Origin: Gemmatimonas sp.
GTDB lineage: Bacteria; Gemmatimonadota; Gemmatimonadetes; Gemmatimonadales; Gemmatimonadaceae
NCBI RefSeq assembly: GCF_021298855.1
Contig: NZ_JAJTHI010000022.1
Location: forward strand, 124,001 to 188,000
Direction: 5' to 3'
Length of the DNA: 64,000 bases
Shown here: positions 9,075 through 32,993 of the stretch, in pieces
Layout of the letters: each line of letters begins with the position of its first letter
Position numbering within the stretch: position 1 is the first letter of the stretch
The notes under the pieces: model-generated
Told to the model about the DNA's origin: nothing
The model's input: the letters and a program-made list of their open reading frames with translations, nothing else
Database searches by the model: none
Made by a program: the position numbers and the translations under genes

Positions 9075-9099
9075 GTGCGCACTCCTGCGCATCGGTCCG

Positions 9100-10733: not shown

Positions 10734-10767
10734 CGCGGGAACCGGCACCGCAAGGGGGCCTCCAGGC

Positions 10768-12123: not shown

Positions 12124-12141
12124 GTCGGAATCCTCCTGCTG

Positions 12142-12849: not shown

Positions 12850-12923
12850 GCGCGCATCCTCCATGGAGCAGTACGATGTCCGATCAAATTGGCCATGGCC
12901 GGCGCGACGCGCCTTCCCGTTTG

Positions 12924-12940
12924 TCCGACATGGTGTCGGT
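12924..12940. promoter_or_regulatory. 17-bp palindromic operator candidate upstream of phosphoribosyltransferase
   Basis: TCCGAC-atggt-GTCGGt matches the site at 9100-9116 in 13 of 17 bases. It sits 75 bp upstream of the phosphoribosyltransferase start on the minus strand. A second, imperfect repeat (CCGA-TGGT-TCGG) follows within 20 bp. Confidence 0.5.
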
Positions 12941-13021
12941 TTTCGTCCGATGGTTCGGGCGCGCGGGGTTCCCCCGACAGTCCGAATGATGTCGAACCGA
13001 TCGGATGACGCTCGCCAGCGA

Positions 13022-13063
13022 GCGGCCCCCCGGAACGTGCGCGAGCACGGCTCGGGGGGCCGC
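13022..13063. terminator. Long GC hairpin with GNRA-like loop
   Basis: An 11-bp perfect stem (GCGGCCCCCCG with CGGGGGGCCGC) encloses a 3x3 internal loop and a second 5-bp stem, CGTGC with GCACG, closed by the tetraloop GCGA. There is no T-run on either side, so it is not a classical intrinsic terminator. It may be a structured RNA element or a bidirectional barrier between divergent units. Confidence 0.5.
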
Positions 13064-13095
13064 TTCGTGCGCGCCACTCTCGACGTCGCTGGCGT

Positions 13096-13246
13096 TCAGG
13101 AGACGGCGAAACGCTCCGCCATGCGGGCGATCGCCCACGCCGCCTGCTCGCGCACGATCTCGTGCTCGTGCTCGCGCATCGCCTCCAGCACGGCGAGATC
13201 CTCGTCGGAGCTGATGTTGCCCAGCACCACGCGCGCGTTGCGCTAC
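13096..13246 (-). pseudogene. Remnant of the 3' end of queG
   Basis: Read on the minus strand, this encodes VVLGNISSDEDLAVLEAM and continues to a stop through EIVREQAAWAIARM. This is the HEAT-like C-terminal end of epoxyqueuosine reductase, as in the intact gene at 31920-32993. Only about 50 codons remain, with no start. Over about 110 bp it is nearly identical at the base level to the fragment at 29873-29985, more so than either is to the intact gene. It is therefore a relic of a duplicated or foreign queG end, not an independent gene. Confidence 0.75.
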
Positions 13247-13364
13247 GGCACTCGGATCGCACCACCCAGACTCGCGCCGCAACGCGCTTCTCTTGACGAT
13301 ACCGCACCCGCGCGACAAGCTCAGCGCCGAGGCCTGAGAGACTTCCCTTGCCGGTGAGGTGCAG

Positions 13365-15881: not shown

Positions 15882-17268
15882 TGAGCGAAACTTCAGTGAG
15901 TTCCTGAAGGAGGCGCTGGAGGGGGAAGGATACGAGGTGGCGCTGGCTGGCACGGCCAGGGCGGGCCTTGAGCTGGCGCGGAAATCCCTTCCCCGTGTCG
16001 TGCTTCTCGACCAGAACCTCCCTGATCAGCAGGGGTTGGCACTGTTGCCCGAGTTCCAGCGGCTGGCATCCGTTCCGGTCGTGATCGTGATAACGGCGCA
16101 TGCGGAGGTCGGCTATGCCGTGACGGCGCTCAAGGCCGGCGCATTTCATTACCTGCCGAAGCCGTTCGCCTTCGATGATCTGCTGGCCGTGCTGGCACAG
16201 GCTGCGATCACCAATGACCTCCTGTCGCCGACGTCGAGCAATGCGGCCATGCAGTCGATCATCGGCACATCGGCCGCCGTGCACGAACTCCGGCGTCAGC
16301 TGGTGCGCATCGCGGCCAGTCCTGTTCCTGCGGTTCTGCTCGAGGGCGAATCCGGCACGGGCAAGGAGCTGGCCGCGCGGGCCATCCACGACGCGAGCGC
16401 GCGGCGGAGCGCGCCCTTCGTGGCGGTCAACTGTGCGGCGTTGTCCGAGACGCTGCTGATGAGCGAGCTGTTCGGACACGAGCGTGGGTCGTTCACGGAC
16501 GCCCGTCAGCAGAAGAAGGGCGTCTTCGAGCTTGCCCACGGCGGGACGCTGCTGCTCGACGAAGTGAGCGAGATGGGGGTGCGTGCGCAGGCAGCGCTGC
16601 TGCGTGCGCTGGAACAACGTAGCTTCACCCGAGTCGGTGGGCAGAGTGAAATCAAGGTCGATGTGCGCGTGATTGCCGCCTCCAATCGCGATATGCGTCA
16701 ACTGGTCTCCACAGGACAGTTTCGCATCGATTTGTATCACCGGCTGAATGTGGTGCGCGTGATGCTGCCGTCACTCCGGGAACGTACGGTGGACATTCCG
16801 CTGATCGCGGAGCATCTCTCGCGCTCCATCGCGCTGAGTTACGGCGAGTCGGTTCGGCCTGTGACACCGGCGGCCGTCGCGGCCCTCGAGGGGTACGAAT
16901 GGCCGGGAAACATCCGGGAGCTTCGCAATGTGATCGAGCGTGCCTATGTGATCAGCGGTGGTCCGCAAGTGGAGCTGCGGGACCTTCCGGATGAGTTGCA
17001 CCCTGTGCCCGCTGCCATCCAGACCGGCGATGTAGCCGTCCGGAGCGCGGAGTCGGGCCGCTTTCAGGATGCGAAGCGCGAGGTCGTGGAGCACTTCGAA
17101 CGCGGCTACCTGCTGGAGGCGCTGCGGAAGGCTGGTGGGAACGTGACGATTGCCGCCGAGCGCGCAGGGGTGCTCCGGCAGGTCTTTCAGCGCATGCTGC
17201 TGCGCCATGGCATCACCCCCACGGACTTCCGCGATTCCACCAGCACACGCGTGCGTCACCCCGAATGA
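15850..17268 (+). CDS. NtrC-family response regulator / enhancer-binding protein
   Basis: A 472-residue regulator with a receiver domain (phosphoacceptor D54 in VLLDQNLPD), an AAA+ domain with Walker A GESGTGKE (166-173) and Walker B LLLDE (234-238), the arginine-finger region around [10 protein letters not shown], and a C-terminal Fis-type helix-turn-helix ([21 protein letters not shown]). The sigma-54 contact loop, usually GAFTGA, reads GSFTDA (213-218); Asp in place of Gly is tolerated in some family members but may weaken or alter sigma-54 contact. It is translated overlapping its kinase. Candidate upstream activating repeats and a -24/-12 promoter follow within 200 bp, so the SusCD/S9 genes are its likely target. 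Confidence 0.94.
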
Positions 17269-17280: not shown

Positions 17281-17320
17281 GCACCAGAAAAGGTGCGGTG
17301 ACTGGCGCACAATAGGTGCG
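17281..17320. promoter_or_regulatory. Paired inverted repeats, candidate enhancer (UAS)
   Basis: Two short inverted repeats lie side by side: GCACC-agaaaa-GGTGC (17281-17296) and CGCAC-aatag-GTGCG (17306-17320). They share a GGTGC/GCACC half-site and stand about 120-160 bp upstream of the -24/-12 element, the usual distance for enhancer-binding-protein sites. Binding by the adjacent NtrC-type regulator is inferred. Confidence 0.45.
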
Positions 17321-17441
17321 ATACGGATCGCGGCATAATGGGTGGCGATGGCAGAGGGCCAGCCTGTCGAATGCCACCAACTCTCGGCGCATCAACGGCT
17401 TGCGCGGCTGACCCGGGGGAGGCAAGGGCGGCGGACGGGAC

Positions 17442-17457
17442 TGGCACGTCGTGTGCC
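17442..17457 (+). promoter_or_regulatory. Sigma-54 type -24/-12 promoter
   Basis: TGGCAC-gtcgt-GTGCC has the GG-N10-GC spacing required by sigma-54 holoenzyme and one mismatch to the TGGCAC-N5-TTGC core. It predicts transcription starting near 17468, leaving about 40 bases of leader before the GTG at 17508, and so argues against the ATG at 17451 as translation start. An NtrC-type activator gene lies directly upstream. Confidence 0.6.
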
Positions 17458-17507
17458 TTCGAGGTGAGTGCACGCTTCCGCCCACCGCCATCCCCGCGAG
17501 GTTCCCC

Positions 17508-19505
17508 GTGCGAGTCCCGAGCGCGACTGCCGCCACCCTGTGCTTCACGCTCTGGCAGGCGGGTGCCACACTCGGTGCGCAGGCTCCAACGCGCGCCGCC
17601 GCGATGATGACGCCGCTCACGGCAGACCAGATCCAGTCGGTCACCTCCATGATTGCCGGTCGCGACGCCCCGATGTGGCATCCGGACGGAACGCGACTGG
17701 CGTTCCTCGGCAGCATGGGCGGGCCGATCGGCCTCTGGGAAGTGGATCGCGATGGGGGCCTGCCGCGCCAGCTGATCGCCGACCTGTCGCTCACCGGTGT
17801 CGGGTCGACGGCCTCGCAGAACCCGCGCTGGTCACCCGCGGGTGACGTCGTGGCCTATGTCTCGAGCAAGGGGGGCGCGCCGGAAATCTGGCTCTGGTCG
17901 GCGCAGACCCGGCGCGACATACCCCTGACATCGCTCGGCGGCCGCATCAACTCGATGAACTGGTCACCAGATGGCCGCCGGATGGCGTTCGCCGCCGATC
18001 GCTACGGGAGTGAGGACATCTACGTCGTGGAGCTGTCGTCGGGTGCCGTGACGCGCCTGACGAGTCATGCCGGCCATGAAGTGTTCCCTACCTGGACGCC
18101 CGACGGACGGTTCGTGCTCTTCGATCGCCTGGACGATCGCTGGATCGATCACGAGGTGATGGCCGTGCCGGTGGACGGGTCGTCAGCACCGCGGCTGATC
18201 GTTCGTGATACGGGCTTCTTCGACTATCGGGGCGGTGTGGCGTTCGGCTACGCCGACGTGGCACCGGACGGCAAGCGCGTCCTGTTTCGGTCGCAGCGCA
18301 GCGGCTGGCTCAACTACTGGACGGTTCCGTTGGCCGGCGGCACACCAACGCCAGTCGCTCCCGAGCAGGCCGAGCAGAGCGAGGCCAGCTGGTCGCCCGA
18401 TGGCCGGCAGCTGGCCTTCGTCTCCAACCGGAACGGGACGCTGCGCCTGTTCGTGGTCAGCAGCGACGGCGGCCCGCCGCGCGCGCTCGTCTCGCCAACG
18501 GATGGGGTGGTGTCGAAACCCGTCTGGTCGCCCGACGGCAGCCGCATCAGCTACATGATGGGCACGACGACCGCGGCGGCCGACCTCTTCATCGTGGAGG
18601 TCGCCAGCGGGCGGAGCACACAGGTCACCCACTCGATGCCGGCCGCGATCTCTCCGGGCGCGCTGATCACGCCGCGCAAGGTCACGTATCCGAGCACCGA
18701 CGGCTTCACCATCAACGCGTACCTGTATGAACCGCGCGGGGTGCGCCAGGGCGAGCGCGTCCCCGCCCTCGTGTGGGTGCATGGTGGTCCCACCTCGCAA
18801 TTCATGGACACGTACCAGGCACAGGTGCAGTTCTTCGCGCAACGCGGGTACGCCGTGCTGCTGCCCAACATCCGGGGAAGCTCCGGATACGGACGTGCCT
18901 TCGAGGATGCCAACAACGGCTGCTGGGGACACTGTGACCTGAAAGACATCGTGGCCGGCGCCGAGTATCTCAAGTCCCTGCCGTATGTGAACGGCGGCAA
19001 GCTCGGCATACATGGCGTCAGCTATGGCGGATGCATGACCATGTCGGCCATCGTGAACGCGCCAGGGCTGTTCCAGGCAGCGATCCCGGAGTCGGGCTAC
19101 GGCGACTGGGTGAAGTTCCACGAGTGGAACGACGAGCTGCAGCACACCAAACTGCTGGCGTACGAGTTCGGCGCATTCCCCGATAGCGCCGCCGTGTACC
19201 GGCGCAACTCGCCCATCTACAACGTACGCCGCGTAACCACGCCGACCTACCTCATGCACGGCGAGGGCGCGCGCACGCCGTGGCGGCCAGGGCAGGCCAG
19301 CGTGCCGGCCTCACTCGACTTCGCGCGGGCACTCGACGCGGAATACAAGATCTTCCGCTACAAGGCCTACCCTGGCGAAACGTACTACGTCACGTCCCGC
19401 GCCAATGTCCGTGAGAAGCTCGGGGACATGCTCGGCTTCTTCGATCAGTTCCTGAAGGACAACGTCTCCGACGCGCCATCAGCGTCTTCACGCTCACGGG
19501 AGTGA
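17508..19505 (+). CDS. Secreted S9-like protein 1 (degenerate catalytic triad)
   Basis: A 665-residue protein with a signal peptide, a TolB/WD40-like beta-propeller (about residues 45-400, with repeated WSPDGRxLAF-type strands) and an alpha/beta-hydrolase domain of the prolyl-oligopeptidase S9 family (about 410-660). The nucleophile serine is present (GVSYGG, S505). The Asp expected in HGxxDxxVP is Ala (HGEGARTP) and the His expected in YPGEGH is Tyr (YPGETYY). Peptidase activity is therefore uncertain. The GTG at 17508 gives a clean signal peptide and lies just downstream of the predicted sigma-54 start. It overlaps the esterase gene and heads the SusCD operon. Confidence 0.88.
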   Translation: MRVPSATAATLCFTLWQAGATLGAQAPTRAAAMMTPLTADQIQSVTSMIAGRDAPMWHPDGTRLAFLGSMGGPIGLWEVDRDGGLPRQLIADLSLTGVGSTASQNPRWSPAGDVVAYVSSKGGAPEIWLWSAQTRRDIPLTSLGGRINSMNWSPDGRRMAFAADRYGSEDIYVVELSSGAVTRLTSHAGHEVFPTWTPDGRFVLFDRLDDRWIDHEVMAVPVDGSSAPRLIVRDTGFFDYRGGVAFGYADVAPDGKRVLFRSQRSGWLNYWTVPLAGGTPTPVAPEQAEQSEASWSPDGRQLAFVSNRNGTLRLFVVSSDGGPPRALVSPTDGVVSKPVWSPDGSRISYMMGTTTAAADLFIVEVASGRSTQVTHSMPAAISPGALITPRKVTYPSTDGFTINAYLYEPRGVRQGERVPALVWVHGGPTSQFMDTYQAQVQFFAQRGYAVLLPNIRGSSGYGRAFEDANNGCWGHCDLKDIVAGAEYLKSLPYVNGGKLGIHGVSYGGCMTMSAIVNAPGLFQAAIPESGYGDWVKFHEWNDELQHTKLLAYEFGAFPDSAAVYRRNSPIYNVRRVTTPTYLMHGEGARTPWRPGQASVPASLDFARALDAEYKIFRYKAYPGETYYVTSRANVREKLGDMLGFFDQFLKDNVSDAPSASSRSRE

Positions 19506-19510
19506 CAGGC

Positions 19511-21322
19511 ATGCAGACCATCGGTGTTGATGACCGGGTGCGGCGGTCGGTGGGAAGGGCGCCCCGAGCCCTGCTCGGTGCGCTCACCGCGCTCATGGCG
19601 GTGACGGGCGTGACGCCCGCCCGTGTGACTGCTCAGGCCGGGGGGCGCTTCGCGGTACGCTTTCCCGCATCGCTCAATGCTGCTCCCATTACGGGTCGTC
19701 TGTTCGTGGCACTCTATCAGCGGAACGACGTCGAGCCACGCATCGCGGCGTATCAGTCCGCGCGCACGCGAATCGGCCGCGTGCCGTTCTTCGCGATCGA
19801 TGTCGAGCAGCAGGCGCCGGGCACGTGGGCCATGCTGAACGACAATGCCGTGGGATACCCCTATTGGAGCATCCGCGACATCCCCCCCGGTGACTACTAT
19901 GCGCAGGCCGTCCTCAACGTCTACACCCGGTTTGCCCGGGCCGACGGGCACACCATCTGGGCACATCAGGATCAGTGGGAGGGACAGCGGTGGGCCTTCT
20001 CCCCGGGGAACCTGATCAGCACACCGGTGAAGGTGCGCGTGGATCCGACGCGGGGTTTTGTCATCCGCCTCGACCTCGACCGGAAGATCCCCCCGATCGA
20101 GGTCGAACCGGATACCCGCTGGGTGAAGCGCATCAAGTTCGAGAGCCCCCTGCTCACCAAATGGTGGGGGCATCCGCAGTATCTGGGCGCCACCGTGCTG
20201 CTGCCGAGGGACTACGACGAGCACCCGGAGACGCGCTATCCGGTAGTCTTCGTCCAGGACCACTTCAGCCTGGCCGCGCCGTTCAACTTCACGACCGCGG
20301 ACACACCATCCACGCCAGGGCTCAATCTGGCGGCGCCCGGAATGTGGTCCGCTGCCGAAATCGGGCGGCCGGTCGGCGGTGCCGGTAAGCGGGAGTCCGG
20401 CTTCGAGTTCTACCAGCAGTGGGTCCGCGACGACATGCCGCGGATGATCGTGGTCAAGTTCCAACACCCGACGCCGTTCTTCGACGATTCGTACGCCGTC
20501 AATTCGGCCAACAACGGGCCGTACGGCGACGCCATCCTGAAGGAACTGATCCCGGAGTTGGAGAGGCGCTTTCGCATGATTGCGGAGCCGTATGCCCGGG
20601 TGCTCACGGGCGGCTCGACCGGCGGATGGGAATCGCTGGCCCTGCAGGTCTATCATCCCGACTTCTTCGGCGGGACCTGGACCATGTACCCCGACCCCGT
20701 CGACTTCCGTCGCTATCAGCTGGTGGACATTTACCGGGACACGAGCGCCTTTCTCGTGCCGAATGCCGCGCCAGGTGCCCCCGAGCGCATGATGCAGATG
20801 AGCCCGGAGGGCCAGCCCGTGGCTACCATGCGGCAAATCTCCCAGATGGAACTCGCGTCGGGAACGCGTGGCCGCTCCGCGGCCCAGATCGACATCTGGA
20901 ATGCCACCTATGGTCCCGTGGGGCCGGATGGATACCCACGCCAGCTGTGGGATTTGCGCACGGGCAAGATCGATCACGAGGTAGCGATCTACATGCGAGA
21001 GCATGGATACGATCTGCGGCACTATCTCGAGACCAACTGGTCGCGCATCGGGCCCTCACTCGTCGGAAAGCTGCACGTGCTCACGGGAGACATGGACGAC
21101 TTCTATCTCGGGCCGGCCGTCTACCTGCTCGAGAGCTTCCTGGAATCCACGAAGTCTCCCCATTACGGCGGAAGCTTTCGCTACGGGCGCCCCATGAAGG
21201 GCCATGGATGGCAACCCATGACCAACGCGGATCTGCTCCGCGAGATGGCCGCACACATCGCTCGCAACGCGCCCGCGGGGGCGCCGGTGCAACGATGGCG
21301 CGATTCGCGCCCGACTCCCTGA
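19511..21322 (+). CDS. Secreted esterase-family protein (Esterase D / Fes-like)
   Basis: A 603-residue exported protein with a signal peptide (about residues 16-42, hydrophobic ALLGALTALMAVTG ending in a VTAQA-like site), an N-terminal beta domain (about 45-200), and an alpha/beta-hydrolase of the putative esterase family. The nucleophile is in TGGSTGGWESLA (S369). The C-terminal HGWQPM near residue 570 could supply the catalytic His. Substrate is unknown; relatives act on acylated carbohydrates, trilactones or acyl-esters. The ATG at 19511 has GGGAG eight bases before it; GTG 19502, overlapping the S9 stop as GTGA, is an alternative. It is co-transcribed with the S9-like gene and lies 100 bp upstream of susC. 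Confidence 0.85.
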   Translation: MQTIGVDDRVRRSVGRAPRALLGALTALMAVTGVTPARVTAQAGGRFAVRFPASLNAAPITGRLFVALYQRNDVEPRIAAYQSARTRIGRVPFFAIDVEQQAPGTWAMLNDNAVGYPYWSIRDIPPGDYYAQAVLNVYTRFARADGHTIWAHQDQWEGQRWAFSPGNLISTPVKVRVDPTRGFVIRLDLDRKIPPIEVEPDTRWVKRIKFESPLLTKWWGHPQYLGATVLLPRDYDEHPETRYPVVFVQDHFSLAAPFNFTTADTPSTPGLNLAAPGMWSAAEIGRPVGGAGKRESGFEFYQQWVRDDMPRMIVVKFQHPTPFFDDSYAVNSANNGPYGDAILKELIPELERRFRMIAEPYARVLTGGSTGGWESLALQVYHPDFFGGTWTMYPDPVDFRRYQLVDIYRDTSAFLVPNAAPGAPERMMQMSPEGQPVATMRQISQMELASGTRGRSAAQIDIWNATYGPVGPDGYPRQLWDLRTGKIDHEVAIYMREHGYDLRHYLETNWSRIGPSLVGKLHVLTGDMDDFYLGPAVYLLESFLESTKSPHYGGSFRYGRPMKGHGWQPMTNADLLREMAAHIARNAPAGAPVQRWRDSRPTP

Positions 21323-21422
21323 GTCGACGCGGGTGCTGCCGCACCGTCGCGCCGCACGGCAATCGCGGGTGCCCACACGATGTACACGCCGGATGACCTC
21401 TCCATTCACTTTCGAGGACCCC

Positions 21423-24410
21423 ATGCACCTCCCCTGGCTGGCCCGAGCAGCACTCATCGTGCTCTTGGCACATGTGGTGCCATTCGCCCCCACCTACGCG
21501 CAGGATGCGCGAGCGACCCGCCCACTGAGCGGGCGCGTCACCGAGGAAGGATCCGGCGCGCCCGCAACCCAGGTGCAGATCGTCCTTGGCGCCGTCGCCC
21601 TCGGTAGCACCCGCGACGACGGGACCTACAGCGTCCGTATCCCCAATGGTGCGGTGACCGTCACGTTTCGGCGCATCGGCTTCGTGCGCAGTGACCAGGC
21701 TGTTGCCGCGAACGTGTCAACCCTTGACGTGGTGCTGCGGCGCGACCTGCTGCGGCTCAGCGAGATGGTAGTGACCGGACAAGCCACGGGGATCGAGCGG
21801 CGCAACGCCGCCACGGCCATCGCCTCCGTGAGCGCGGCGGAACTCAATCGCGTCCCGGCACCCAGCGTGGAAACCATGCTCGCGGGGCGGGTACCCGGCG
21901 CGGAAATCTCGAGCAACTCCGGCGCGCCCGGCGGAGGCAACCAAGTGCGACTCCGCGGGATCTCCACCGTGATCGGTGCGGCGACACCTCTTTATGTGGT
22001 GGATGGCGTGATCATCAGCGATGCGACGATCGCGCCCGGCGTGTTCGCCGTGACCGGGTCGTCGGCCAATCCAGTCGTCGGTGGCCGGCAGGACAACGCC
22101 TCGAATCGCGTAGCCGACCTCGATCCGAACAGCATCGAGCGCATCGAGGTCCTCAAGGGTGCGACCGCCGCCTCCATCTACGGATCGCGCGCCAACAACG
22201 GGGTCGTCCTGATCACCACCAAACGCGGCAACCTTGGAAAGCCTGCGTATACCTTCACCCAACGCTTCGGCCGGCCGGAAGTCGCGCGAACCATCGGGCT
22301 GCGCCGATTCAATTCTCAGGCAGATGCCATCGCCACCTTCGGTCCGGCGGTGGGCGCCCTGTGGAAGGAGGGGGCATTCTTTGATCATGAGCGTGAGGTG
22401 TACGGCGAGACACCGACCTCATGGGAAAGCATCATGAGCGTCAGCGGGGGCAGCAACGACACCCGCTACTTCGCCTCGGGACTGCTCAAGGACGACGGCG
22501 GCATCATTGCGAACACCGGGTACCGCAAGCAGTCCCTCACGGTCGGCCTCGATCAGAACATCAGCAGCAAGCTCACGGCCCGCGTCACGACGAACCTGCT
22601 TGGCACGAAGACCGGTCGTGGCCTCACCAACAACGACAACCGCGGTGTGGCGCTGGGGCAGGCGCTGGCGCGGAGCCCGTCCTTCATCGACCTTCGACGC
22701 AATCCCGACGGCTCGTTCCCGCGAAACCCGGCGGCGCAGAGCAACCCCCTGCAGACTGCCGCCCTCAGCAAGAACGACGAGGTCGTGTATCGCGCCATCA
22801 CCTCGGGCAACCTGACCTACAACGCCTTCACTCGCACCCGTCAGGATCTGCGCTTCATCGCCAGCGGTGGCGTCGACTTCTTCAATCAGCGCAGCAACAT
22901 CCTCACGCCCCCGGATCTGCAGTTCGAGCCGCTCGACGGCCTCCCCGGGACGGCGGTGCGCTCCAACGCGCAAAGCCTCAACATGAACCTCAACGTCAGC
23001 GCGGTGCACACCTATCGCTCTGCGGGTGGCGGGCTGCAGGCGACGACCTCGATAGGCCATCAGTATGAGCAGCGCGGTCTGAGCAACTCACGCGTGGTGG
23101 CCCAGAACCTCATCGGGGGACTGGACAACATCGGCCGTGCGACCGCGGTGAGTGTGGCCGAGGATGACTCGCGCACGAACGACATCGGCATCAATGCCCA
23201 GGAGGAACTGCTCCTGCTTGATCAGAAGCTGTTCCTCGCCGCCGGCTTCCGTGCCGACCGGAGTTCGAACAACAGCGACCCGAACCAGTACTACTTCTTC
23301 CCGCGCGCCCAGGCCTCCTACCGGTTCGTCTCGCTGCCGTCGATTTTCGACGAACTCAAGGTCCGTCTCGCCACGGGACGTTCGGGCAACCAGCCCCAGT
23401 TCGGGCAGAAGTTCACGGAGTTCTTCGGCGGCAACATTGCGGGCCTGCCCACGATCGAGATCGGCAGTGGTGCCCAGACGGCCGACGCCAACCTGCGCCC
23501 GGAGATTCAGCGGGAAATCGAGACCGGCCTCGATCTCTCGATGCTGAAGGGACGCGCGGCCCTGGAATTCTCGTACTTCGACAAGCAGACCGATGATCTG
23601 CTGGTCACCGCGACGCTGCCGAACTCGACCGGGTACGGGTTGCGGATCTTCAATGGCGGATCGATTCAGACACGCGGGTACGAGGCGGCGCTGAAGGGCT
23701 TCCCCATCGTGACCAAGTCGTTCGAATGGAACTCCACCACGACGTTCTCCACCATCAACGCACGCGTACGCTCGCTGCCGGTTCCGCCGTTCCAGGCGCC
23801 CGGCTTCGGTACCACGTTCGGCGTCTTCCAGATCGAAGCCGGCAAGTCACTCACGCAGATCGTCGGCAATGACTCCCTCCCGACCGGGCAGGGGATCGTG
23901 ACGCAGGTCGGCGATGCCAATCCCGATTTCCGGATGGGTTTCAGCAACTCGTTCCGGATGGGTCCCTTCAATCTCACGTCGCTGTTCGACTGGCAGCAGG
24001 GGGGCGAGGTCATCAACCTGACCCGCTATCTCTGGGATGCCTCGCGGAATGGCGCCGACTGCAACGACCTGGCGCCCCTGCCCAACGCCACGAACGAAAC
24101 GATCTGTGCCCGGCGCCTTCGCACCTTCCCCCGGCAGACCCGCAACTACATCGAGGATGCGAGCTTCGTGAAATTGCGCGAGCTGACCCTCACGTACGAC
24201 CTGCCATCCGCGCTGGTCCGTCGCGCCATGAGCCGAGCGGAGTCGGCGCGGCTCACGCTCTCCGGCCGAAATCTCCTGATCATCACCGACTACACCGGAC
24301 TCGATCCCGAAGTATCCAACTTCGGCACCCAGGCGGTCTCCCGCGGCTTTGATGTGTCTCCGTATCCGCCAAGTCGCAGCTTCTGGTTCTCCATCGACGT
24401 GAGGTTCTGA
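21423..24410 (+). CDS. SusC/RagA-family TonB-linked outer-membrane transporter
   Basis: A 995-residue outer-membrane receptor. A signal peptide ending in PTYAQ is followed by a carboxypeptidase-like regulatory domain (about residues 35-110: LSGRVTEEGSGAPATQVQIVLG), a plug domain (about 120-260, with LYVVDGVII and the SusC signature IERIEVLKGATAASIYGSRANNGVVLITTK), and a long beta-barrel with an aromatic end (PPSRSFWFSIDVRF). It imports a ligand captured by the SusD partner, powered by TonB. The ATG at 21423 has a GAGG upstream and gives the signal peptide. It is followed after 2 bp by susD. The neighbouring S9-like and esterase genes suggest peptides or acylated peptides as cargo rather than glycans. 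Confidence 0.95.
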   Translation: MHLPWLARAALIVLLAHVVPFAPTYAQDARATRPLSGRVTEEGSGAPATQVQIVLGAVALGSTRDDGTYSVRIPNGAVTVTFRRIGFVRSDQAVAANVSTLDVVLRRDLLRLSEMVVTGQATGIERRNAATAIASVSAAELNRVPAPSVETMLAGRVPGAEISSNSGAPGGGNQVRLRGISTVIGAATPLYVVDGVIISDATIAPGVFAVTGSSANPVVGGRQDNASNRVADLDPNSIERIEVLKGATAASIYGSRANNGVVLITTKRGNLGKPAYTFTQRFGRPEVARTIGLRRFNSQADAIATFGPAVGALWKEGAFFDHEREVYGETPTSWESIMSVSGGSNDTRYFASGLLKDDGGIIANTGYRKQSLTVGLDQNISSKLTARVTTNLLGTKTGRGLTNNDNRGVALGQALARSPSFIDLRRNPDGSFPRNPAAQSNPLQTAALSKNDEVVYRAITSGNLTYNAFTRTRQDLRFIASGGVDFFNQRSNILTPPDLQFEPLDGLPGTAVRSNAQSLNMNLNVSAVHTYRSAGGGLQATTSIGHQYEQRGLSNSRVVAQNLIGGLDNIGRATAVSVAEDDSRTNDIGINAQEELLLLDQKLFLAAGFRADRSSNNSDPNQYYFFPRAQASYRFVSLPSIFDELKVRLATGRSGNQPQFGQKFTEFFGGNIAGLPTIEIGSGAQTADANLRPEIQREIETGLDLSMLKGRAALEFSYFDKQTDDLLVTATLPNSTGYGLRIFNGGSIQTRGYEAALKGFPIVTKSFEWNSTTTFSTINARVRSLPVPPFQAPGFGTTFGVFQIEAGKSLTQIVGNDSLPTGQGIVTQVGDANPDFRMGFSNSFRMGPFNLTSLFDWQQGGEVINLTRYLWDASRNGADCNDLAPLPNATNETICARRLRTFPRQTRNYIEDASFVKLRELTLTYDLPSALVRRAMSRAESARLTLSGRNLLIITDYTGLDPEVSNFGTQAVSRGFDVSPYPPSRSFWFSIDVRF

Positions 24411-24412
24411 CC

Positions 24413-25804
24413 ATGATCACTCTCCGGCACTTCCGTCGTGGTCGATTGTCGACTGCATTCGCCACATCCCTCGTGCTTGCCGCCGTGGGCTGTGGAGAGA
24501 TCGATGTGGCAAACCCGAACAACCCGAGTGTGGATGGGCTGGTGCAGTCGCCGAACGCCACCAGCGCGTCGGCGCTCGCCACTGGGTTGCTGCGCGGGAC
24601 CCGGGCCAACGTGGCCGAGGGGATTCGCTGGCTGGGCGCATTCGGGCGCGAAGGATATCCCATGTCGGTGACCGGGGCCTCGTTGCCAGGCAGCGTGCGG
24701 GATCCACTCAATGGCAACGGGTTTCCCGGCAACGTGCTCTACGCCGATCCGTACCGGAACATCCGGTCCGCCAACCTGCTGCTGGCGGCCATCAGCGACG
24801 TGGGCGCGTGGAGCGACGCCCAGAAGGAAGCGGCACGCGGCTTTGCCAAGACGATCCAGGCCTATGACTTCCTGCAGGTGATCGTGACCCGCGACGTGTT
24901 CGGCGCCCCGCTGGATGTCGGCATCGATCCCACGGCGCCGCCAGCCCCGATCGCCACGAAGGCGCAGGTCTACGCGCGCATCGCCACCCTGCTCGACGAG
25001 GCCAGGGGGCATCTGCAGGCGGGCGGCACCGCGTTCCCGTTCCCGCTCACCAGCGGCTTCAGCGGCTTCAACACCCCCGCCACGTTCCTCCGGGTCAACC
25101 GGGCGCTGCGGGCACGCGCCGCCGTGTACACGGACAACTGGCAGGTGGCCCTGACCGCGTTGAGCGAATCGTTCATCAGTACCACGGCGCCCCTCACCCT
25201 CGGGGCCTACCACGTCTTCTCGACCAATTCCGGGGACATCACGAACCCCAACTTCCGGCCGGACCTCCTGTTCGCCCACCCCCGACTGCGGACCGAGGCC
25301 AAGCTGCGCGCCGATGGCTCGCTCGACCTGCGTGCACAAACCAAGCTCGTGACCGTGCCCACGTTCACCGTGCAGGGCATCAGCTCCAATGTGCAGTTCA
25401 CGATGTACAACTCGGCCACCGCGTCCATCCCGCTGATTCGCAACGAGGAGCTGCTGCTCCTGCGCGCGGAGGCCAATCTCGGGCTCGGAAACACGGCGCT
25501 GGCCATTCAGGACATCAACCTGGTGCGCACGACGGCCGGTGGTCTGCCGCCGCTCCCCAGCAACTTCTCCGGGGATCTCCTGACGGAGCTGCTGTACGAC
25601 AAGCGGTATTCCCTCGTGTGGGAGGGAGGGCACACATGGATCGACATGCGGCACTATGGCCGCCTCGCCCAGATCCCCGTACGGGCCGCAGACCCCCGGC
25701 TCTTCCCGGCAATGCCCATCCCCGTGGCGGAATGCCAACCGCGTACGCCGCAGCCGACAGGATGTGGAATCGTCGACGGCATCACTCCGCCCCCGCAACC
25801 GTAA
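24413..25804 (+). CDS. SusD/RagB-family surface lipoprotein
   Basis: A 463-residue lipoprotein whose signal peptide ends in a lipobox AAVGC about 24 residues from the ATG. The body shows the SusD/RagB helical pattern: an early IDVANPNNPSVDGL, tetratricopeptide-like helices (ARGFAKTIQAYDFLQVIVT, ARIATLLDEARGHL), and the C-terminal block in which RNEELLLLRAEANLGLG and AIQDINLVRTTAGG precede ERR/KRYSLVWEGGHTWIDMRHYGRL. It acts as the ligand-capturing lid of the SusC barrel. It begins 2 bp after susC, so the pair is translationally linked. The specificity is not readable from sequence. Confidence 0.93.
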   Translation: MITLRHFRRGRLSTAFATSLVLAAVGCGEIDVANPNNPSVDGLVQSPNATSASALATGLLRGTRANVAEGIRWLGAFGREGYPMSVTGASLPGSVRDPLNGNGFPGNVLYADPYRNIRSANLLLAAISDVGAWSDAQKEAARGFAKTIQAYDFLQVIVTRDVFGAPLDVGIDPTAPPAPIATKAQVYARIATLLDEARGHLQAGGTAFPFPLTSGFSGFNTPATFLRVNRALRARAAVYTDNWQVALTALSESFISTTAPLTLGAYHVFSTNSGDITNPNFRPDLLFAHPRLRTEAKLRADGSLDLRAQTKLVTVPTFTVQGISSNVQFTMYNSATASIPLIRNEELLLLRAEANLGLGNTALAIQDINLVRTTAGGLPPLPSNFSGDLLTELLYDKRYSLVWEGGHTWIDMRHYGRLAQIPVRAADPRLFPAMPIPVAECQPRTPQPTGCGIVDGITPPPQP

Positions 25805-25815
25805 GGCAGGGACGC

Positions 25816-25843
25816 GCCGGGCACCCCGTGCGGGGTGCCCGGC
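25816..25843. terminator. Perfect hairpin between susD and the second S9-like gene
   Basis: A 12-bp perfect stem, GCCGGGCACCCC with GGGGTGCCCGGC, closes a 4-base loop (GTGC). Only a short T-run (CGTTTCCC) comes 9 bases later. It can act as a partial terminator or as a processing/stability element that sets the ratio of SusCD to the downstream S9 proteins. Confidence 0.65.
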
Positions 25844-25881
25844 ACGCATCACCGTTTCCCATCGACACGAGGCGCACCCGG

Positions 25882-27822
25882 ATGCGACACCCGCTAGTTT
25901 CGCTCGCCGCCCTTGGCGCACTGCTGAGTCCTCTCCTGAACGCCGGGACCGGCGCGCAGGGGCAACCCCTCAGCGCCAGTGACGTCACGTCGGTCCGCTC
26001 CATTGTCGGGGGCGTGGCGCCGCAATGGTCGCCAGACGGAGCGCGTCTGCTCATCGGCGGTGCGCTGGGAGGTTCGGATCTGTGGACCGTCCCGGCGGCT
26101 GGCGGTCTGCCAACGTCGCTCGATATCCAACTCGGCGAGATCGCCTTCCTGCAGTCGCATCAGCCCAAGTACGCGCCCAATGGTCAGTGGCTCTCGTACA
26201 TCTCGAATCGCAACGGCCCTGCCGAGCTCTTCGTGCGCTCGCTGCGGGATGGGACGGAGATGCAGCTCACGAATCTTGGCGGACGCATCAACTCCTATTC
26301 ATGGTCGCCGGACGGGAATTCCATCGCGTTTGCCGGCGACAAGTTCGGGCACTTCGATGTCTACACCGTCACGGTACCCGGCAAGGCCGTCGTGCGCCTG
26401 ACCAACGACACCCGGTACGAGGTCTTTCCCACCTGGACCCCTGACGGGAAGCGGGTGGTGTACGCCCGCATGGACGAGCGCTGGCTCGAGCACGAGGTGC
26501 TCGAACGGTCCGCCGCTGGCGACGGACAACCGCGAACGATCGTGAAGGATGTCGACTTCTTCGACTATCAGGCTGGCGGGAATTTCGGCTATTCGCTGGT
26601 CTCACCAGATGGCAGCACGCTGCTGTTTCGTTCGCACCGCAGCGGGTGGATCAACTATTGGATCGTGCCGATGGCCGGCGGCGTTCCGCGGCCAGTCGCG
26701 GCCGAGGCGGCTAATCAGTCCGGCGCCCGGTGGTCGCCGGACGGAAAGTCGATCCTGTATCAGGCGCTGTGGAACGGGACACAGGACCTGCGGATCGTTG
26801 CCGCTGGCGGCGGCGCGCCGCGCGTGCTGGCAAAACCCGACGGCATGGGGGTGATCAGCAACGCGGAATGGTCACCCGACGGACGTCAGGTGAGCTTCAC
26901 CCGCGAAACCCCGACCGAAGCGGCCGACCTGTTCGTCGTGAACACTGCGGGAGGTGCCCCCCGCCGACTGACGACCTCATCCACCGCGAGCCATGTCGCG
27001 AGCCGGCTCATCACGCCGAAAAAGGTATCGTACAAGTCCCCGGACGGCCTGACCATTCAGGCGTATCTCTACGAGCCCACGCTGGCACCCGGCAGCAAGG
27101 CGCCCGGCATCCTGTTCATTCACGGTGGACCGACCTCGTCATTCAACGATACGTATCAGGCGCAGGTGCAGTACCTGGCCATGCGGGGGTACGCCGTCCT
27201 GCTGCCGAACATCCGGGGCAGTTCCGGATACGGCAAGATCTTTGAGGACGCGAACAACGGCTGCTGGGGACGCTGTGACCTGCCCGATGTCACCTCCGGC
27301 GTCGAGTTTCTGAAGACGCTGCCGTACATCGAGCCCACGCGGATGGGCATCACGGGCACGAGCTATGGTGGATGCATGAGCCTCGCGGCCGCGGCCTTCG
27401 CTCCCGGCGTCTTTCAGGCGGCGATCGCCGCGTCAGGGTATGGCGACTGGCTGCACTTCCACGCAGAGCAGGAGTTGCGCCACGTGAAGCTCGTCGAGTA
27501 CGAGTTCGGCGACTTGCCACAGGCCGCAGACAAGTACCGCATGTCGTCGCCGATCTTCTTCATGAAGGAGATCCAGACGCCGATCATGCTCATTCATGGC
27601 GTGGGGGCGCAACTTCCGCGCTCGGTGGCCTCCGCGACCTTTGCCGATCGCCTGGAAATGAACTACAAGCCGTTCACCTACAAGACCTATCCGAATGAGA
27701 ACTACTACATTCGGCGTCGTGACAACATCCAGGTCATGCTCGGGGACATGGTCGCGTACTTCGACCAACACCTGAAGGACGGTATCCGGGAGCCGGCCCG
27801 CGCGCGCGAAGGCACCCGATGA
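25882..27822 (+). CDS. Secreted S9-like protein 2 (degenerate catalytic triad)
   Basis: A 646-residue paralogue of the S9-like protein at 17508 with the same plan: signal peptide (MRHPLVSLAALGALLSPLLNAG), a TolB-like propeller with WSPDG blades, and an S9 alpha/beta-hydrolase domain. The nucleophile serine is present in GTSYGG (S494). The triad Asp position is Ala (HGVGAQLP) and the His position is Tyr (YPNENYY). It starts after the hairpin following susD and ends in an ATGA overlap with a third copy. Retention of the fold with the same two losses in all copies points to a selected function other than standard S9 catalysis, or to replacement residues elsewhere. Confidence 0.9.
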   Translation: MRHPLVSLAALGALLSPLLNAGTGAQGQPLSASDVTSVRSIVGGVAPQWSPDGARLLIGGALGGSDLWTVPAAGGLPTSLDIQLGEIAFLQSHQPKYAPNGQWLSYISNRNGPAELFVRSLRDGTEMQLTNLGGRINSYSWSPDGNSIAFAGDKFGHFDVYTVTVPGKAVVRLTNDTRYEVFPTWTPDGKRVVYARMDERWLEHEVLERSAAGDGQPRTIVKDVDFFDYQAGGNFGYSLVSPDGSTLLFRSHRSGWINYWIVPMAGGVPRPVAAEAANQSGARWSPDGKSILYQALWNGTQDLRIVAAGGGAPRVLAKPDGMGVISNAEWSPDGRQVSFTRETPTEAADLFVVNTAGGAPRRLTTSSTASHVASRLITPKKVSYKSPDGLTIQAYLYEPTLAPGSKAPGILFIHGGPTSSFNDTYQAQVQYLAMRGYAVLLPNIRGSSGYGKIFEDANNGCWGRCDLPDVTSGVEFLKTLPYIEPTRMGITGTSYGGCMSLAAAAFAPGVFQAAIAASGYGDWLHFHAEQELRHVKLVEYEFGDLPQAADKYRMSSPIFFMKEIQTPIMLIHGVGAQLPRSVASATFADRLEMNYKPFTYKTYPNENYYIRRRDNIQVMLGDMVAYFDQHLKDGIREPARAREGTR

Positions 27823-29762
27823 GTCGCGCAACCGGCCTCCTGCTGATCACCGGCGCACTGCTCGGCACGCCACTTGGCGTGTCCCTTGGTGCGCAGTCGG
27901 CAGAACCTCGGGCGTTGTCTGCGCGTGAACTTACGGGGATACGGTCGGCGGTTGCGAGCGAGCCGCAGTGGTCGCCCGACGGCTCCACCCTGATGTTCAA
28001 TTCGTCACTCGGTGAGGGGGGCCTCTGGGCGGTCCCCGCCAGCGGCGGATTCCCCACCGCACTCAACGTCAGGACCGGGGGCACCACGTTCCTGGGGTCG
28101 GCGCAGCCGGAATGGTCACCAGACGGCAAGTGGCTCTCGTACGTGTCGACCAAATCCGGAACGCCGGAACTGTGGCTGAGTTCCGTCGCCGATGGGCAGG
28201 AGCGCCAGCTGACGAACCTGGGTGGACGGATTGGGTCGTACACCTGGGCGCCCGATGGATCCGCCATCGCCTTCTCGGATGACAAGCTGGGCAACCATGA
28301 CATCTGGACCATCCGGATCGCCGATGGGCATCTGCGCCGCCTGACGAATGGGCCGCTCCTCGAGGTCTCCCCGACCTGGACTCCCGACGGACGCCAGGTG
28401 GTCTACGTCCGACTCGACTCCACGTGGCGCAATCATGACGTGCTGGTCATGGCGCCCGACGGCAGTGGTCCGCGCGTCATCGTGCAGGATACGGGCCTGT
28501 TTGATTATCAGGCGGGAGGGGCGTTCGGCCCTGCGCAGGTCTCGCCTGCCGGCACACACCTGCTGTTCCGCTCGCAGCGATCGGGATGGGTCAACTACTG
28601 GGTGGTGCCCATGACGGGCGGAGAGGCTCGCCAGATTGCCGCGGAACCTGCCAATCAGAGTGGCGCACGCTGGTCGCCTGATGGTCGCGACATTCTGTAT
28701 TTGTCGCTGCAGAATGGCACCCAGCACTTGCGGGCCGTGGCTTTGGCCGGTGGCGTATCCCGATCTGTGGCGTCGCCGTCGGGAATGGGCATGGTCTCGG
28801 CAGCCAACTGGTCACCCGATGGACGGCGGGTCAGCTATGTGCTGGCGTCACCGACGACCCCGGGAGACCTGTACGTCGTGCCGTTTGCAGGAGGGCAGGC
28901 CACTCGGCTGACGAACTCGGACCCTCCGGCGCACATCGCGCAATCGCTCATCGTACCGGAAAAGCTCACCTACCGATCGGAGGACGGCCTCGAGATTTCC
29001 GCGTATCTGTACCGGCCACGTGGGCTCGCCGTCAACGAAAAGGCACCGGGGCTGCTGTGGATTCATGGAGGACCCACGGCGCAGTTCAGCGACGCGCTGC
29101 AGCGTGACGTGCAGTTCTTCGCGATGCGTGGTTTCGCCGTCTTGCTGCCGAACATTCGCGGCAGCTCGGGCTATGGCCGTGCCTTCGAGGAAGCCAACAA
29201 CGGCTGCTGGGGGCGCTGCGATCTGCCGGATGTTCTGGCGGGAGTCGCCGTGCTGAAGACGCTGCCCGAGGTCCGTTCAGACCGGATGGGCATTACCGGC
29301 ACGAGCTACGGCGGATACATGAGCATGGCGGCCCCGGTCTTTGCGCCGAAGGTGTTCCAGGCGGCAATCGCCGCGTCCGGCTACGGCGACTGGGTCCACA
29401 CTGTGGCCGAGCAGGAAACGCGGCACGTGAAGCTGCTGGAACACGAGTTTGGCCCGTTGAGCCGCAATCTGGAGAAATACCGCCGCAGTTCACCGATCTA
29501 CGAGCTGGAGAATCTCGAGACCCCGATCATGCTGGTGCATGGCGCGGCCACCACCATTCCGCGATCCGACGCCTCCCGGTTGTTCGCCGACCGCCTCGAG
29601 ATGCTGTACAAGCCGTTCGTCTATCGCACCTATCCCAACGAGAACTACTACATCTCCAACCGGGAGAACACGGTTGCCCTGCTCGACGATATGCACGGTT
29701 TCTTCACGCAGCACCTGAAGGATGGTGCCGTGCACGGCGATGCCCGTGGTCCGCGGCGCTAG
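27819..29762 (+). CDS. Secreted S9-like protein 3 (degenerate catalytic triad)
   Basis: A 647-residue tandem paralogue of the preceding gene, overlapping it by four bases. It has a signal peptide (LLLITGALLGTPLGVSLGAQS), a beta-propeller with repeated QWSPDG and PEWSPDGKWLSYVS strands, and an S9 hydrolase domain with GTSYGG (S496). The Asp position is Thr (HGAATTIP) and the His position Tyr (YPNENYY). It is closer to copy 2 than to copy 1 (for example the shared CWGRCDLPD and YPNENYY blocks), so the 2-3 pair is probably the younger duplication. It is the last gene of the SusCD locus. Confidence 0.9.
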   Translation: MSRATGLLLITGALLGTPLGVSLGAQSAEPRALSARELTGIRSAVASEPQWSPDGSTLMFNSSLGEGGLWAVPASGGFPTALNVRTGGTTFLGSAQPEWSPDGKWLSYVSTKSGTPELWLSSVADGQERQLTNLGGRIGSYTWAPDGSAIAFSDDKLGNHDIWTIRIADGHLRRLTNGPLLEVSPTWTPDGRQVVYVRLDSTWRNHDVLVMAPDGSGPRVIVQDTGLFDYQAGGAFGPAQVSPAGTHLLFRSQRSGWVNYWVVPMTGGEARQIAAEPANQSGARWSPDGRDILYLSLQNGTQHLRAVALAGGVSRSVASPSGMGMVSAANWSPDGRRVSYVLASPTTPGDLYVVPFAGGQATRLTNSDPPAHIAQSLIVPEKLTYRSEDGLEISAYLYRPRGLAVNEKAPGLLWIHGGPTAQFSDALQRDVQFFAMRGFAVLLPNIRGSSGYGRAFEEANNGCWGRCDLPDVLAGVAVLKTLPEVRSDRMGITGTSYGGYMSMAAPVFAPKVFQAAIAASGYGDWVHTVAEQETRHVKLLEHEFGPLSRNLEKYRRSSPIYELENLETPIMLVHGAATTIPRSDASRLFADRLEMLYKPFVYRTYPNENYYISNRENTVALLDDMHGFFTQHLKDGAVHGDARGPRR

Positions 29763-29829: not shown

Positions 29830-30181
29830 TCACGACCCGTATCCCCCGCGGGCGAGACGTTCGATGCCCCACGCCGCCTGCTCGCGCACGATCTCGTGCT
29901 CGGGCTCGCGCATCGCCTCCAGCACGGCGAGATCCTCGTCGGAGCTGATGTTGCCCAGCACCACGCACGCGTTGCGCTGCAGCATCCACAGCGTGGCGCG
30001 CTTGATGGCTGAGCCCTTGAATGCCGCCGCGTACTCGGACGGCCCCATCATGAGGATCTCGCGCGCCAGGGCACGCGTGCCCGCGTGGTCGTACGACTCG
30101 GCGAACAGCTCCCGTGGTGCGAACTCCGGCAGCATCGCGTCACGCGCGCACTTCACATTCCACGGGCACACTTCGTTGAAA
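29830..30181 (-). pseudogene. Partial second copy of queG (3' third)
   Basis: Read on the minus strand, about 117 codons from NEVCPWNVKCARD to a stop match the C-terminal third of the intact QueG at 31920-32993: the last Fe-S cysteine, then REILMMGPSEYAAAFKGSAI, and the HEAT-like tail. The start, the catalytic domain and the first Fe-S motif are missing. By eye, base identity to the intact gene is only about 80 percent, so this is a diverged or foreign copy, not a recent duplication. It matches the scrap at 13096 more closely. With 30182-30352 it forms a stretch of about 590 bp with no intact gene. Confidence 0.8.
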
Positions 30182-30352: not shown

Positions 30353-31705
30353 ATGGACCTCCTCGAGATCCTCACCCGCCCGGAAGGCAAGACCCTCGAG
30401 TTCAAGCGCGATCTGTCCTCTCCGGATGGCGTGCTCAAGACGCTGATCGCCTTCGCCAACACGGCCGGCGGTACGCTGCTCGTCGGGGTCGAGGATCGGA
30501 CGCGAAGCGTGCGAGGCGTACCTGATGCCCTCGATGTCGAAGAGCGGATCGCAAACATCGTGAGCGATTCCATCGCGCCCCGGCTGTTGCCGGACATCGA
30601 GATCCTGCCGTGGCGCCGCACGCAGGTCATCGCCATTCGGATTCATCCGAGCGCTGCTCGCCCGCACTATCTCAAACGTGAGGGAGCGGAGTCCGGGACC
30701 TACGTCCGCGTTGGCTCCACCAACCGCCGCGCCGATAACGAGATGCTGCAGGAGCTCCGCCGCACCGCGCGCGGAGAGAGCTACGACGAGCAGCCGATGA
30801 TCGACCTTGACTCGGAAGCGCTCGACTTCCGAGCTGCTTCCGAGTCCTTCAAGCCCACTCGGACCCTTCGGCGTCGCGACTTGGAGACGCTGAGGCTCGT
30901 CACCAGTCATCAGGGCCACACCGTACCGACGGTAGGCGGCATGCTACTCTTCGGTCGGGAGCGCGAGCGCCACTTCCCGGACGCTTGGATCCAGGCGGGG
31001 CGCTTTGACGGGCTCGAAAAGAGCCGTATCCTCGACCGGGCAGAGTTCCGCAACCCACCGGTCGCTGCCATCGAGGACGCCATCGCGTTCATCGAGAAGC
31101 ATTCCCTGTACAGTGCCGACATCGGGAGAGTCCGTCGAACGGATCGTTGGAACCTCCCGCCTGTTGCCGTACGAGAAGCTGTTATCAACGCGGTCGCCCA
31201 CGCCGACTACGCGCAGCGCGGCGCTCCGATTCGTATCTCGATCTTCGACGATCGCTTGGAGATCGAGAATCCGGGTCTGCTCCCGTTCGGCCTAACGGTC
31301 GCAGACCTCGAGAATGGCATCTCCAAGCTCCGAAACCGAGTAATCGGCCGCGTCTTCCATGCCATCGGCCTTATCGAGCAGTGGGGGAGTGGCATCCAGC
31401 GAATGACCGCCGCGTGCCGCGAGGCCGGGCTGGCTGACCCCCGGCTTGAGGAGATCGCAACGAGGTTTCGCGTGACCATATTCACCTCACGGGTCAACCG
31501 CCCCACGCTCGATGACACCGATCAGGCCATCGTCGATGGACTATCAGATGGGAAGGGCAAGTTGACCAGTGAGATCGCCGCCGTCATTGGACTGACCCCT
31601 CGGGCCACCCGTACCCGACTGGCCCGCCTCGTGGGTAACGGGCTTGTTCGCGAAGTTGGAAGCGGACCGCAGGATCCGAAGCGGCGCTATTTCCTGGCGA
31701 AGTAG
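30353..31705 (+). CDS. AlbA_2 (Schlafen-like) domain protein with HATPase and winged helix
   Basis: A 450-residue protein often annotated as a RecG-like helicase or transcriptional regulator, although it has no helicase motifs. An N-terminal AlbA_2/Schlafen domain (about 10-130) begins with KTLEFKRDLSS and has the GGTLLVGVED and PDIEILPWRRTQVIAIRI strands. An HATPase_c_4 domain (about 265-365) has REAVINAVAHADY and ENPGLLPFGLT. A winged helix closes the protein (LTSEIAAVIGLTPRATRTRLARLV). Local GC content is visibly lower than the surroundings, and it lies between a truncated and an intact queG, so transfer is likely. Relatives occur in mobile islands and defence neighbourhoods; its role here is unknown. 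Confidence 0.87.
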   Translation: MDLLEILTRPEGKTLEFKRDLSSPDGVLKTLIAFANTAGGTLLVGVEDRTRSVRGVPDALDVEERIANIVSDSIAPRLLPDIEILPWRRTQVIAIRIHPSAARPHYLKREGAESGTYVRVGSTNRRADNEMLQELRRTARGESYDEQPMIDLDSEALDFRAASESFKPTRTLRRRDLETLRLVTSHQGHTVPTVGGMLLFGRERERHFPDAWIQAGRFDGLEKSRILDRAEFRNPPVAAIEDAIAFIEKHSLYSADIGRVRRTDRWNLPPVAVREAVINAVAHADYAQRGAPIRISIFDDRLEIENPGLLPFGLTVADLENGISKLRNRVIGRVFHAIGLIEQWGSGIQRMTAACREAGLADPRLEEIATRFRVTIFTSRVNRPTLDDTDQAIVDGLSDGKGKLTSEIAAVIGLTPRATRTRLARLVGNGLVREVGSGPQDPKRRYFLAK

Positions 31706-31919: not shown

Positions 31920-32993
31920 TCAGACTGCTCCGCGACTCAATTGAAGCACCGCCCACGCCGCCTGCTCGCGCACGATCTCGTGCTCGTGCTCGCGCATCGC
32001 CTCCAGCACGGCGAGATCCTCGTCGGTGCCCACGTTCCCCAGTACCACGCACGCGTTGCGCTGCAGCATCCACAGCTTCGCACGCTTGATCGCACTGCCC
32101 CTGAACGCCGCCGCATAATCGGCCGGCGTCATCATCAGGATTTCGCGCGCGAGTGCCCGCGTCCCCGCGCGATCGTGCGTATCCGCAAATAGCTCGCGCG
32201 GGCGGAACGCATCGAAGGCCGTGTCCCGCGCGAACTTCACGGTCCACGGACACACGTCATTGCAGATGTCGCAGCCGTAGAGCAGCCCGCCCACACCCTC
32301 GCGCAGCGCCGGCGGAATCGGCCCGCGGTGTTCGATGGTGAGGTAGCTGATGCAACGGTTTGCATCGAGCACCCGTGGCGCCGGAAGCGCCCCCGTGGGA
32401 CAGGCGTCCAGGCAGCGGGTGCAGGTGCCGCAACGATCGGCATCGAACGGCGCGTCCTCATCGAGCGCCACATCCACGAACAGCGAGGCCAGGAACAGGT
32501 GTGAACCGGCCCCCGGCACGATGAGCATGGTGTTCTTCCCCACCCACCCGAGCCCCGCGCGCTGCGCGAGATCCCGCTCGAGAATGGGCCCGCTGTCCAC
32601 GTACGGGCGCGCGTTCACCGGTCGCCCTACTTCGCGCTCCAGCCAGCCGTGCAGCTCCCGCACCCGCTCGCGCAGCACCACATGGTAGTCGTCGCCCCGC
32701 GCGTAGCGCGCCACGGGACCGGCTGGGGTGCGTCCCCCATACGAGGCGGCCACCACCACCGCGTGCGTGGCACCGGGGTGCGGCAGGCGGCTGTCGCGGC
32801 GCCGTGCCGCCCCTTCCCCCTCCAGGTACGCCATGGAGGCCTGATGGCCGGCGGCCAGCCAGGCGTCGAACGCGGCCCGTGTGGTTGGCTCACCCAATCG
32901 CGCCACGCCCGCGGCATCGAACCCCAGCCCGTACGCCTCGGCCTTGAGCCGTTCGGTGAGGGAGCGGATCGTCAGGGCTGTCGCCCCACCCAC
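31920..32993 (-). CDS. queG: Epoxyqueuosine reductase
   Basis: A 357-residue cobalamin-dependent iron-sulfur reductase that converts epoxyqueuosine in tRNA to queuosine. Both [4Fe-4S] motifs are visible: CGTCTRCLDACP (about residue 190) and CDICNDVCPW (about 240). The substrate and cobalamin domain spans about 15-180 with the RPYVDSGPILERDLAQRAGLGWVGKN block, and the HEAT-like tail runs from about 290. The last few codons after EQAAWA (VLQLSRGAV) differ from both partial copies in the window, so the extreme C-terminus may have been replaced by recombination. The start overlaps the end of the small membrane protein gene upstream by 22 bp. Confidence 0.96.
   Translation of the reverse strand: MGGATALTIRSLTERLKAEAYGLGFDAAGVARLGEPTTRAAFDAWLAAGHQASMAYLEGEGAARRRDSRLPHPGATHAVVVAASYGGRTPAGPVARYARGDDYHVVLRERVRELHGWLEREVGRPVNARPYVDSGPILERDLAQRAGLGWVGKNTMLIVPGAGSHLFLASLFVDVALDEDAPFDADRCGTCTRCLDACPTGALPAPRVLDANRCISYLTIEHRGPIPPALREGVGGLLYGCDICNDVCPWTVKFARDTAFDAFRPRELFADTHDRAGTRALAREILMMTPADYAAAFRGSAIKRAKLWMLQRNACVVLGNVGTDEDLAVLEAMREHEHEIVREQAAWAVLQLSRGAV

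Follow-up and report, generated by a model that had tools for sequence, protein, structure and literature searches.

Which regulator switches on a SusC/SusD uptake operon that lies directly behind a sensor histidine kinase and an NtrC-family response regulator? The question is raised by a locus in a 64-kb stretch of contig NZ_JAJTHI010000022.1 (contig positions 124,001–188,000, 64,000 nucleotides, G + C content 68%; hereafter called the window, to which coordinates refer unless stated otherwise). The kinase and regulator genes are followed by a gap of 239 bp and by a six-gene run, 17508–29762, in the order S9 peptidase, esterase-like protein, SusC, SusD, S9 peptidase, S9 peptidase, as assigned with Pfam and NCBIfam. 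Judged from the sequence, it is likely that the pair switches on this operon through a sigma-54 promoter in the gap, and that the whole acts as a peptide-scavenging unit.

The first-pass annotation of the window had placed a PDZ histidine kinase and an NtrC-type regulator upstream of a SusCD-S9 operon, and the Pfam domains found show that this arrangement is real. The features of the locus are as follows.

13359–15881, plus strand: sensor histidine kinase of 840 amino acids, with a transmembrane helix, a PDZ-like domain, several more transmembrane helices, a GAF-like region, HisKA (His617) and HATPase
15850–17268, plus strand: NtrC-family response regulator, with a receiver domain (Asp54), an AAA+ sigma-54 interaction domain, a GSFTDA loop and a Fis-type helix-turn-helix
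17280–17297, plus strand: putative activator site 1, TGCACC-N6-GGTGCG, from the sequence pattern
17306–17320, plus strand: putative activator half-sites 2, CGCAC-N5-GTGCG, from the sequence pattern
17390–17402, plus strand: site resembling that of integration host factor (IHF), C-ATCAA-CGGC-TTG, between the putative activator sites and the promoter
17442–17457, plus strand: predicted sigma-54 -24/-12 promoter, TGGCACGTCGTGTGCC, with a predicted start at ~17468
17508–19505, plus strand: S9 peptidase, with a TolB-like propeller, a signal peptide-like start and the nucleophile motif GVSYGG
19502–21322, plus strand: esterase-like exported protein, with a GGSTGG motif and a weak Pfam Esterase match
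21423–24410, plus strand: SusC/RagA TonB-dependent receptor (open reading frame from 21333; ATG at 21423 is the likely start)
24413–25804, plus strand: SusD-family lipoprotein, with the lipobox-like AVGC
25816–25843, plus strand: perfect 12-bp hairpin between the SusD and S9 genes, GCCGGGCACCCC-GTGC-GGGGTGCCCGGC
25882–27822, plus strand: S9 peptidase, GTSYGG (open reading frame from 25618; ATG at 25882 is the likely start)
27819–29762, plus strand: S9 peptidase, GTSYGG

The regulator was matched by Pfam Response_reg and, at 219 bits, by Sigma54_activat, and has the receiver Asp, the Walker motifs, the GSFTDA loop and the helix-turn-helix. The last of these scored 20.6 bits with HTH_8, just below the cut-off of 22 (E 4e-4), at a typical position. 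In the kinase HisKA and HATPase_c were found, and a weak PDZ match (23.9 bits) fell just below its cut-off of 27. In the structure model of the kinase, which is of low confidence (predicted local distance difference test score, pLDDT, 59), one helix precedes the PDZ-like domain and several follow it; because the domain is placed after the first membrane helix, a periplasmic location is plausible. The regulator gene begins 32 bp within the kinase gene, so the two are presumably co-transcribed. SusC scored 459 bits with TIGR04056, above the curated cut-off of 368, and SusD, whose gene adjoins that of SusC, scored 32.4 with PF07980 (cut-off 23.1).

The gap runs from the stop of the regulator gene at 17268 to the GTG of the first S9 gene at 17508. 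The promoter element in it, with the pattern TGGCACG-N5-TGCC, lies 51 bp before the first gene and fits 10 of the 12 consensus positions. The exact GG-N10-GC spacing that had been claimed ahead of the first S9-like gene is present here (GG at 17443–17444, GC at 17455–17456). A count over 823 kb of strand gave 28 GG/GC sites with at most two mismatches to TGGCACGNNNNTTGCW, approximately one per 29 kb, and the chance of such a site in the 239-bp gap on the right strand is P ~0.008; for an exact TGGCACGN5TGC it is P ~0.0004. In relatives, the upstream regions of 16 other SusC genes, read over up to 900 bp, contained no GG/GC site of this class; no sigma-70-like site was found in the 239-bp gap.

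In the organism's own genome of 4.09 Mb (G000), TGGCACGN5TGC occurs 13 times. With gene starts taken from a simple codon-usage gene caller, which recovers the genes around the unit, six of these sites are intergenic, every one 42–181 bp ahead of a gene: fliL, genes for a PEP-CTERM, a TPR and a GGDEF protein, a desaturase gene, and the SusCD-S9 operon. The reversed motif, a control of equal composition, was intergenic at none of the 30 loci read (Fisher p=0.0003). When one-mismatch sites are included, the genes behind the intergenic sites are those for FliL, an FlgE/F/G-type rod protein, two PEP-CTERM proteins, a TPR protein, a GGDEF protein, a cupin and a desaturase. Flagellar and PEP-CTERM genes are generally known as sigma-54 targets elsewhere (PMC9850573). 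A check of the genome for rpoN, as had been suggested, revealed a single, complete and intact copy, with the RpoN box ARRTVAKYRDQ. Four of the intergenic sites (G000:C83:9296, C10:3412, C62:62517 and C62:50809), before two PEP-CTERM genes, fliL and a flagellar rod gene, are a first outline of the predicted sigma-54 regulon of this organism.

Two GGTGC-type inverted repeats had also been described upstream of the promoter. Both are present, the first as a palindrome ~155 bp upstream of the -24 element of the operon; the second is spaced differently and is therefore not an identical copy of the first. Between these repeats and the promoter, ATCAACGGCTTG fits the IHF core ATCAANNNNTTR and is the sole such match in the 64 kb. 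Classical sigma-54 promoters have IHF sites in the corresponding position, between activator sites and promoter. The single HU/IHF protein of the genome is nearest to IHF-beta (90 bits, with a cut-off of 115; HU-beta 62). A function of the repeats at 17293–17310 as a terminator was rejected: the only match was weak and lay on the minus strand, oriented towards the regulator gene. An Rfam search gave no match.

Conservation was analysed in 61 genomes, the own genome and 60 relatives. An orthologue of the regulator was found only in G015, of the same genus (91% identity; next best ~44%). The eight-gene unit, i.e. pair and operon, is likewise present in G015 only, with DNA ~87% identical. Within the gap, which is 80% identical overall, three conserved islands could be distinguished: the repeats AAAAGGTGCGGTGACTGGCGCACAnnAGGTGCGAT, a middle block that retains the IHF-like site, and GCGGCGGACGGGACTGGCACGTC[G/A]TGTGCC. 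The sole change in the promoter island falls in the free spacer, with 12 of 12 informative positions kept, and 33 of the 35 columns of the GGTGC repeat block are kept. The -24/-12 element is thus conserved, as the first-pass annotation had required of orthologues: G015 is the only full orthologous locus in this sample, and a perfect form stands at the more distant pair of G321 (see below). Among 19 other SusCD loci, from relatives and paralogues, none had the kinase pair or the S9-esterase-SusCD-S9-S9 order; there is a distant S9 gene near one of them (L090).

The pair recurs outside this genus. Among 395 genomes of the phylum, the full-length kinase was found only in G000, G015, G213 and G321; searching 394 genomes of the class with a profile recovered these four and no others. 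G213 and G321 belong to two other families, and the regulator downstream of their kinase is 54% identical. All four regulators have the recognition-helix residues RQ..QR..RHGI in common. At the position of the GAFTGA loop, G213 and G321 have GAFTDA, so that F and T are retained there as in GSFTDA; both variants are frequent among activators of relatives. No SusCD unit adjoins the pair in G213 or G321; in both, a gene for an exported M28/M20-type peptidase diverges from the kinase gene (in G213 the peptidase was identified by reading the locus sequence directly). In G321 this gene is preceded, 155 bp ahead of its called start, by the perfect consensus TGGCACGACGATTGCT, one of only four perfect -24/-12 consensus sites in that genome. 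A palindrome, CGCACT-N6-GGTGCA, lies ~143 bp upstream of its -24 element (locus L184) and has the same 18-bp pattern as site 1. A scan of genome contigs with the regulator gave distant activators only, the best with 49% identity over part of the protein, and no close relatives of SusC, QueG or the kinase turned up in plasmid scans.

Several observations weigh against control of the operon by this pair. Both mismatches of the promoter element to the consensus affect its -12 part (GTGCC instead of TTGCW), site 1 is half-degraded in G015 (left half TGCATC), G213 has only a weak three-mismatch -24/-12 candidate and no palindrome, and no IHF-like site was found at the corresponding place in G321. 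In addition, the IHF match, like the activator pattern, was noticed only once the sequence had been inspected, which makes their statistics post hoc; the joint pattern YGCACYN6GGTGCR (13 places in the own genome; one match in the G321 contig, 0.03 expected) was itself drawn from the own and the G321 sites. Given its two mismatches, and a frequency of one expected match in 29 kb of strand, the element could be a chance occurrence in a GC-rich gap, the operon using an ordinary promoter or one of the extracytoplasmic function (ECF) type. This is very improbable in view of a P for the gap of ~0.008 or less, the strong intergenic enrichment of the exact motif class, the conservation of the element and its perfect form in G321.

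If the element is real, a different sigma-54 activator might act on it, the neighbourhood of the adjacent regulator being accidental. Nine regulators in the own genome match at E<=1e-60, so at least eight more similar ones are available, and the orthologous pairs in G213 and G321 are not beside SusCD. However, pair and operon are co-inherited in G000 and G015 with the intervening repeats conserved, the orthologous pair in G321 is accompanied by the same palindrome pattern, and sigma-54 activators commonly regulate locally; we therefore consider this quite unlikely. It is also unlikely that the sigma-54 promoter drives the first genes only, with SusC/SusD expressed mainly from a promoter of their own at 21323–21422 or uncoupled by the hairpin behind SusD. 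There is indeed a 100-bp gap ahead of the likely SusC start, and the hairpin that separates SusD from the S9 genes is retained in G015 via compensatory changes, which suggests an RNA element involved in mRNA end protection or differential expression. Nevertheless, all six genes are on one strand and either overlap or are separated by short gaps, and S9 genes are found in this order in no other SusCD locus of relatives.

In the favoured explanation, activation of the operon by the adjacent pair, the membrane kinase, with its PDZ-like domain probably in the periplasm, would phosphorylate the NtrC-type regulator, which would then bind the GGTGC-type sites ~120–165 bp upstream of the -24/-12 element. 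Between these sites and the promoter the DNA would be bent by an IHF-like protein, and ATP hydrolysis would open sigma-54 RNA polymerase at 17442–17457. One transcript from ~17468 would carry all six genes. The exported S9 peptidases and the esterase-like protein would yield short products, to be imported by SusC/SusD. We infer peptides as the cargo because of the three S9 enzymes, the resemblance of SusC to BT_2264 and RagA (its nearest solved relatives include BT_2264, and RagA was also matched) and the exported peptidases that adjoin the orthologous pairs. Both BT_2264 and RagA have been linked to peptides in the literature. The position of the orthologous pairs beside exported peptidases is also consistent with the envelope or peptide cue proposed earlier for the kinase, which could be peptides or the ends of envelope proteins. 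It is possible, although we propose it only tentatively, that the PDZ kinase, found in 4 of ~395 genomes, senses protein or peptide ends and induces exported peptidases via sigma-54, a SusCD importer having been recruited in one lineage.

Direct repeats of ~120 bp flank the unit, at 13128–13250, 29861–29984 and 31949–32068; they are copies of the queG 3' end (HEAT part). In G015 the unit likewise abuts queG, and 3' fragments of queG were also found in other members of the genus, in series in G029. There, five or six fragments (G029:C1:4951336-5022892, L261–L264) lie on the strand of queG, spread over 70 kb downstream of the intact gene and separated by accessory genes (efflux pump, antiporter, kinases); no recombinase was found among ten genes tested. 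Insertions seem to have accumulated one after another at the 3' end of queG, a probable hot spot. Because copies of this end bound the unit and recur in genus members, the unit probably arrived at this hot spot, which would explain its patchy spread. A protein with Schlafen AlbA_2 and HATPase_c_4 domains, encoded between two of the copies (30353–31705), is probably a separate insert at this hot spot. Beside the unit, 7956–13077 encodes a baeRF family 10 archaeo-eukaryotic release-factor-like protein, an erythromycin-esterase-family protein and a phosphoribosyltransferase.

With NtrBC, AtoSC and ZraSR the system shares a kinase with a receiver-AAA-Fis regulator, upstream palindromes, an IHF-like site and a -24/-12 element. 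It differs from them in its presumed target, a SusC/SusD and S9 peptidase operon, and in the PDZ-like multi-helix sensor of the kinase; kinase and regulator reach none of the named NCBIfam cut-offs. PrsK/PrsR (PMC1569441, PMC9850573) also place exported proteins under sigma-54 two-component control, and TGGCAC sigma-54 promoters before PEP-CTERM genes occur in this genome too, but the targets here are not PEP-CTERM proteins. The pair was rejected as PrsK/PrsR (kinase 72.8 with TIGR02916, cut-off 300; regulator 350 with TIGR02915, cut-off 502.6). It was also rejected as a hybrid two-component system (HTCS), in which a single protein serves as both kinase and AraC-type regulator, since here there are two proteins and a Fis-type helix-turn-helix.

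Like SusCD loci of Bacteroidota (PMC3878776), the locus encodes a membrane sensor alongside a SusC/SusD pair and secreted hydrolases; unlike them, it has, in place of a one-protein HTCS, SusR or ECF/anti-sigma control, a kinase and an NtrC-type regulator as two proteins, together with sigma-54. It resembles the RagAB and BT_2264 importers in its SusC sequence and in having peptidases nearby, whereas here the S9 genes share the operon and its predicted sigma-54 control, with peptides as presumed cargo. Sigma-54 control of a SusCD locus had been called unusual by comparison with Bacteroidota. For that phylum this is right: regulation in Bacteroides is attributed to SusR, HTCS or ECF systems (PMC3878776), and the main text of that paper makes no mention of sigma-54 or RpoN. 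However, SusR and HTCS systems are stated to be unique to Bacteroidota (PMC3878776) and the host, with a G + C content of 68%, probably belongs to the Gemmatimonadota, so a different control system is less surprising. Control of exterior functions by sigma-54 is an established theme (PMC3162934). No relevant paper on sigma-54 control of SusC/SusD was found in the literature searched, an incomplete collection in which absence is weak evidence; against that literature, the parts are of known kinds and their combination would be new.

If the sigma-54 switch is true, the SusCD locus would have a near-zero basal level and depend strictly on its signal, and nutrient uptake would be tied to a sigma-54 regulon that here also includes flagellar and PEP-CTERM genes. 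The locus would provide a defined promoter architecture in a bacterial group whose regulation is almost unstudied.

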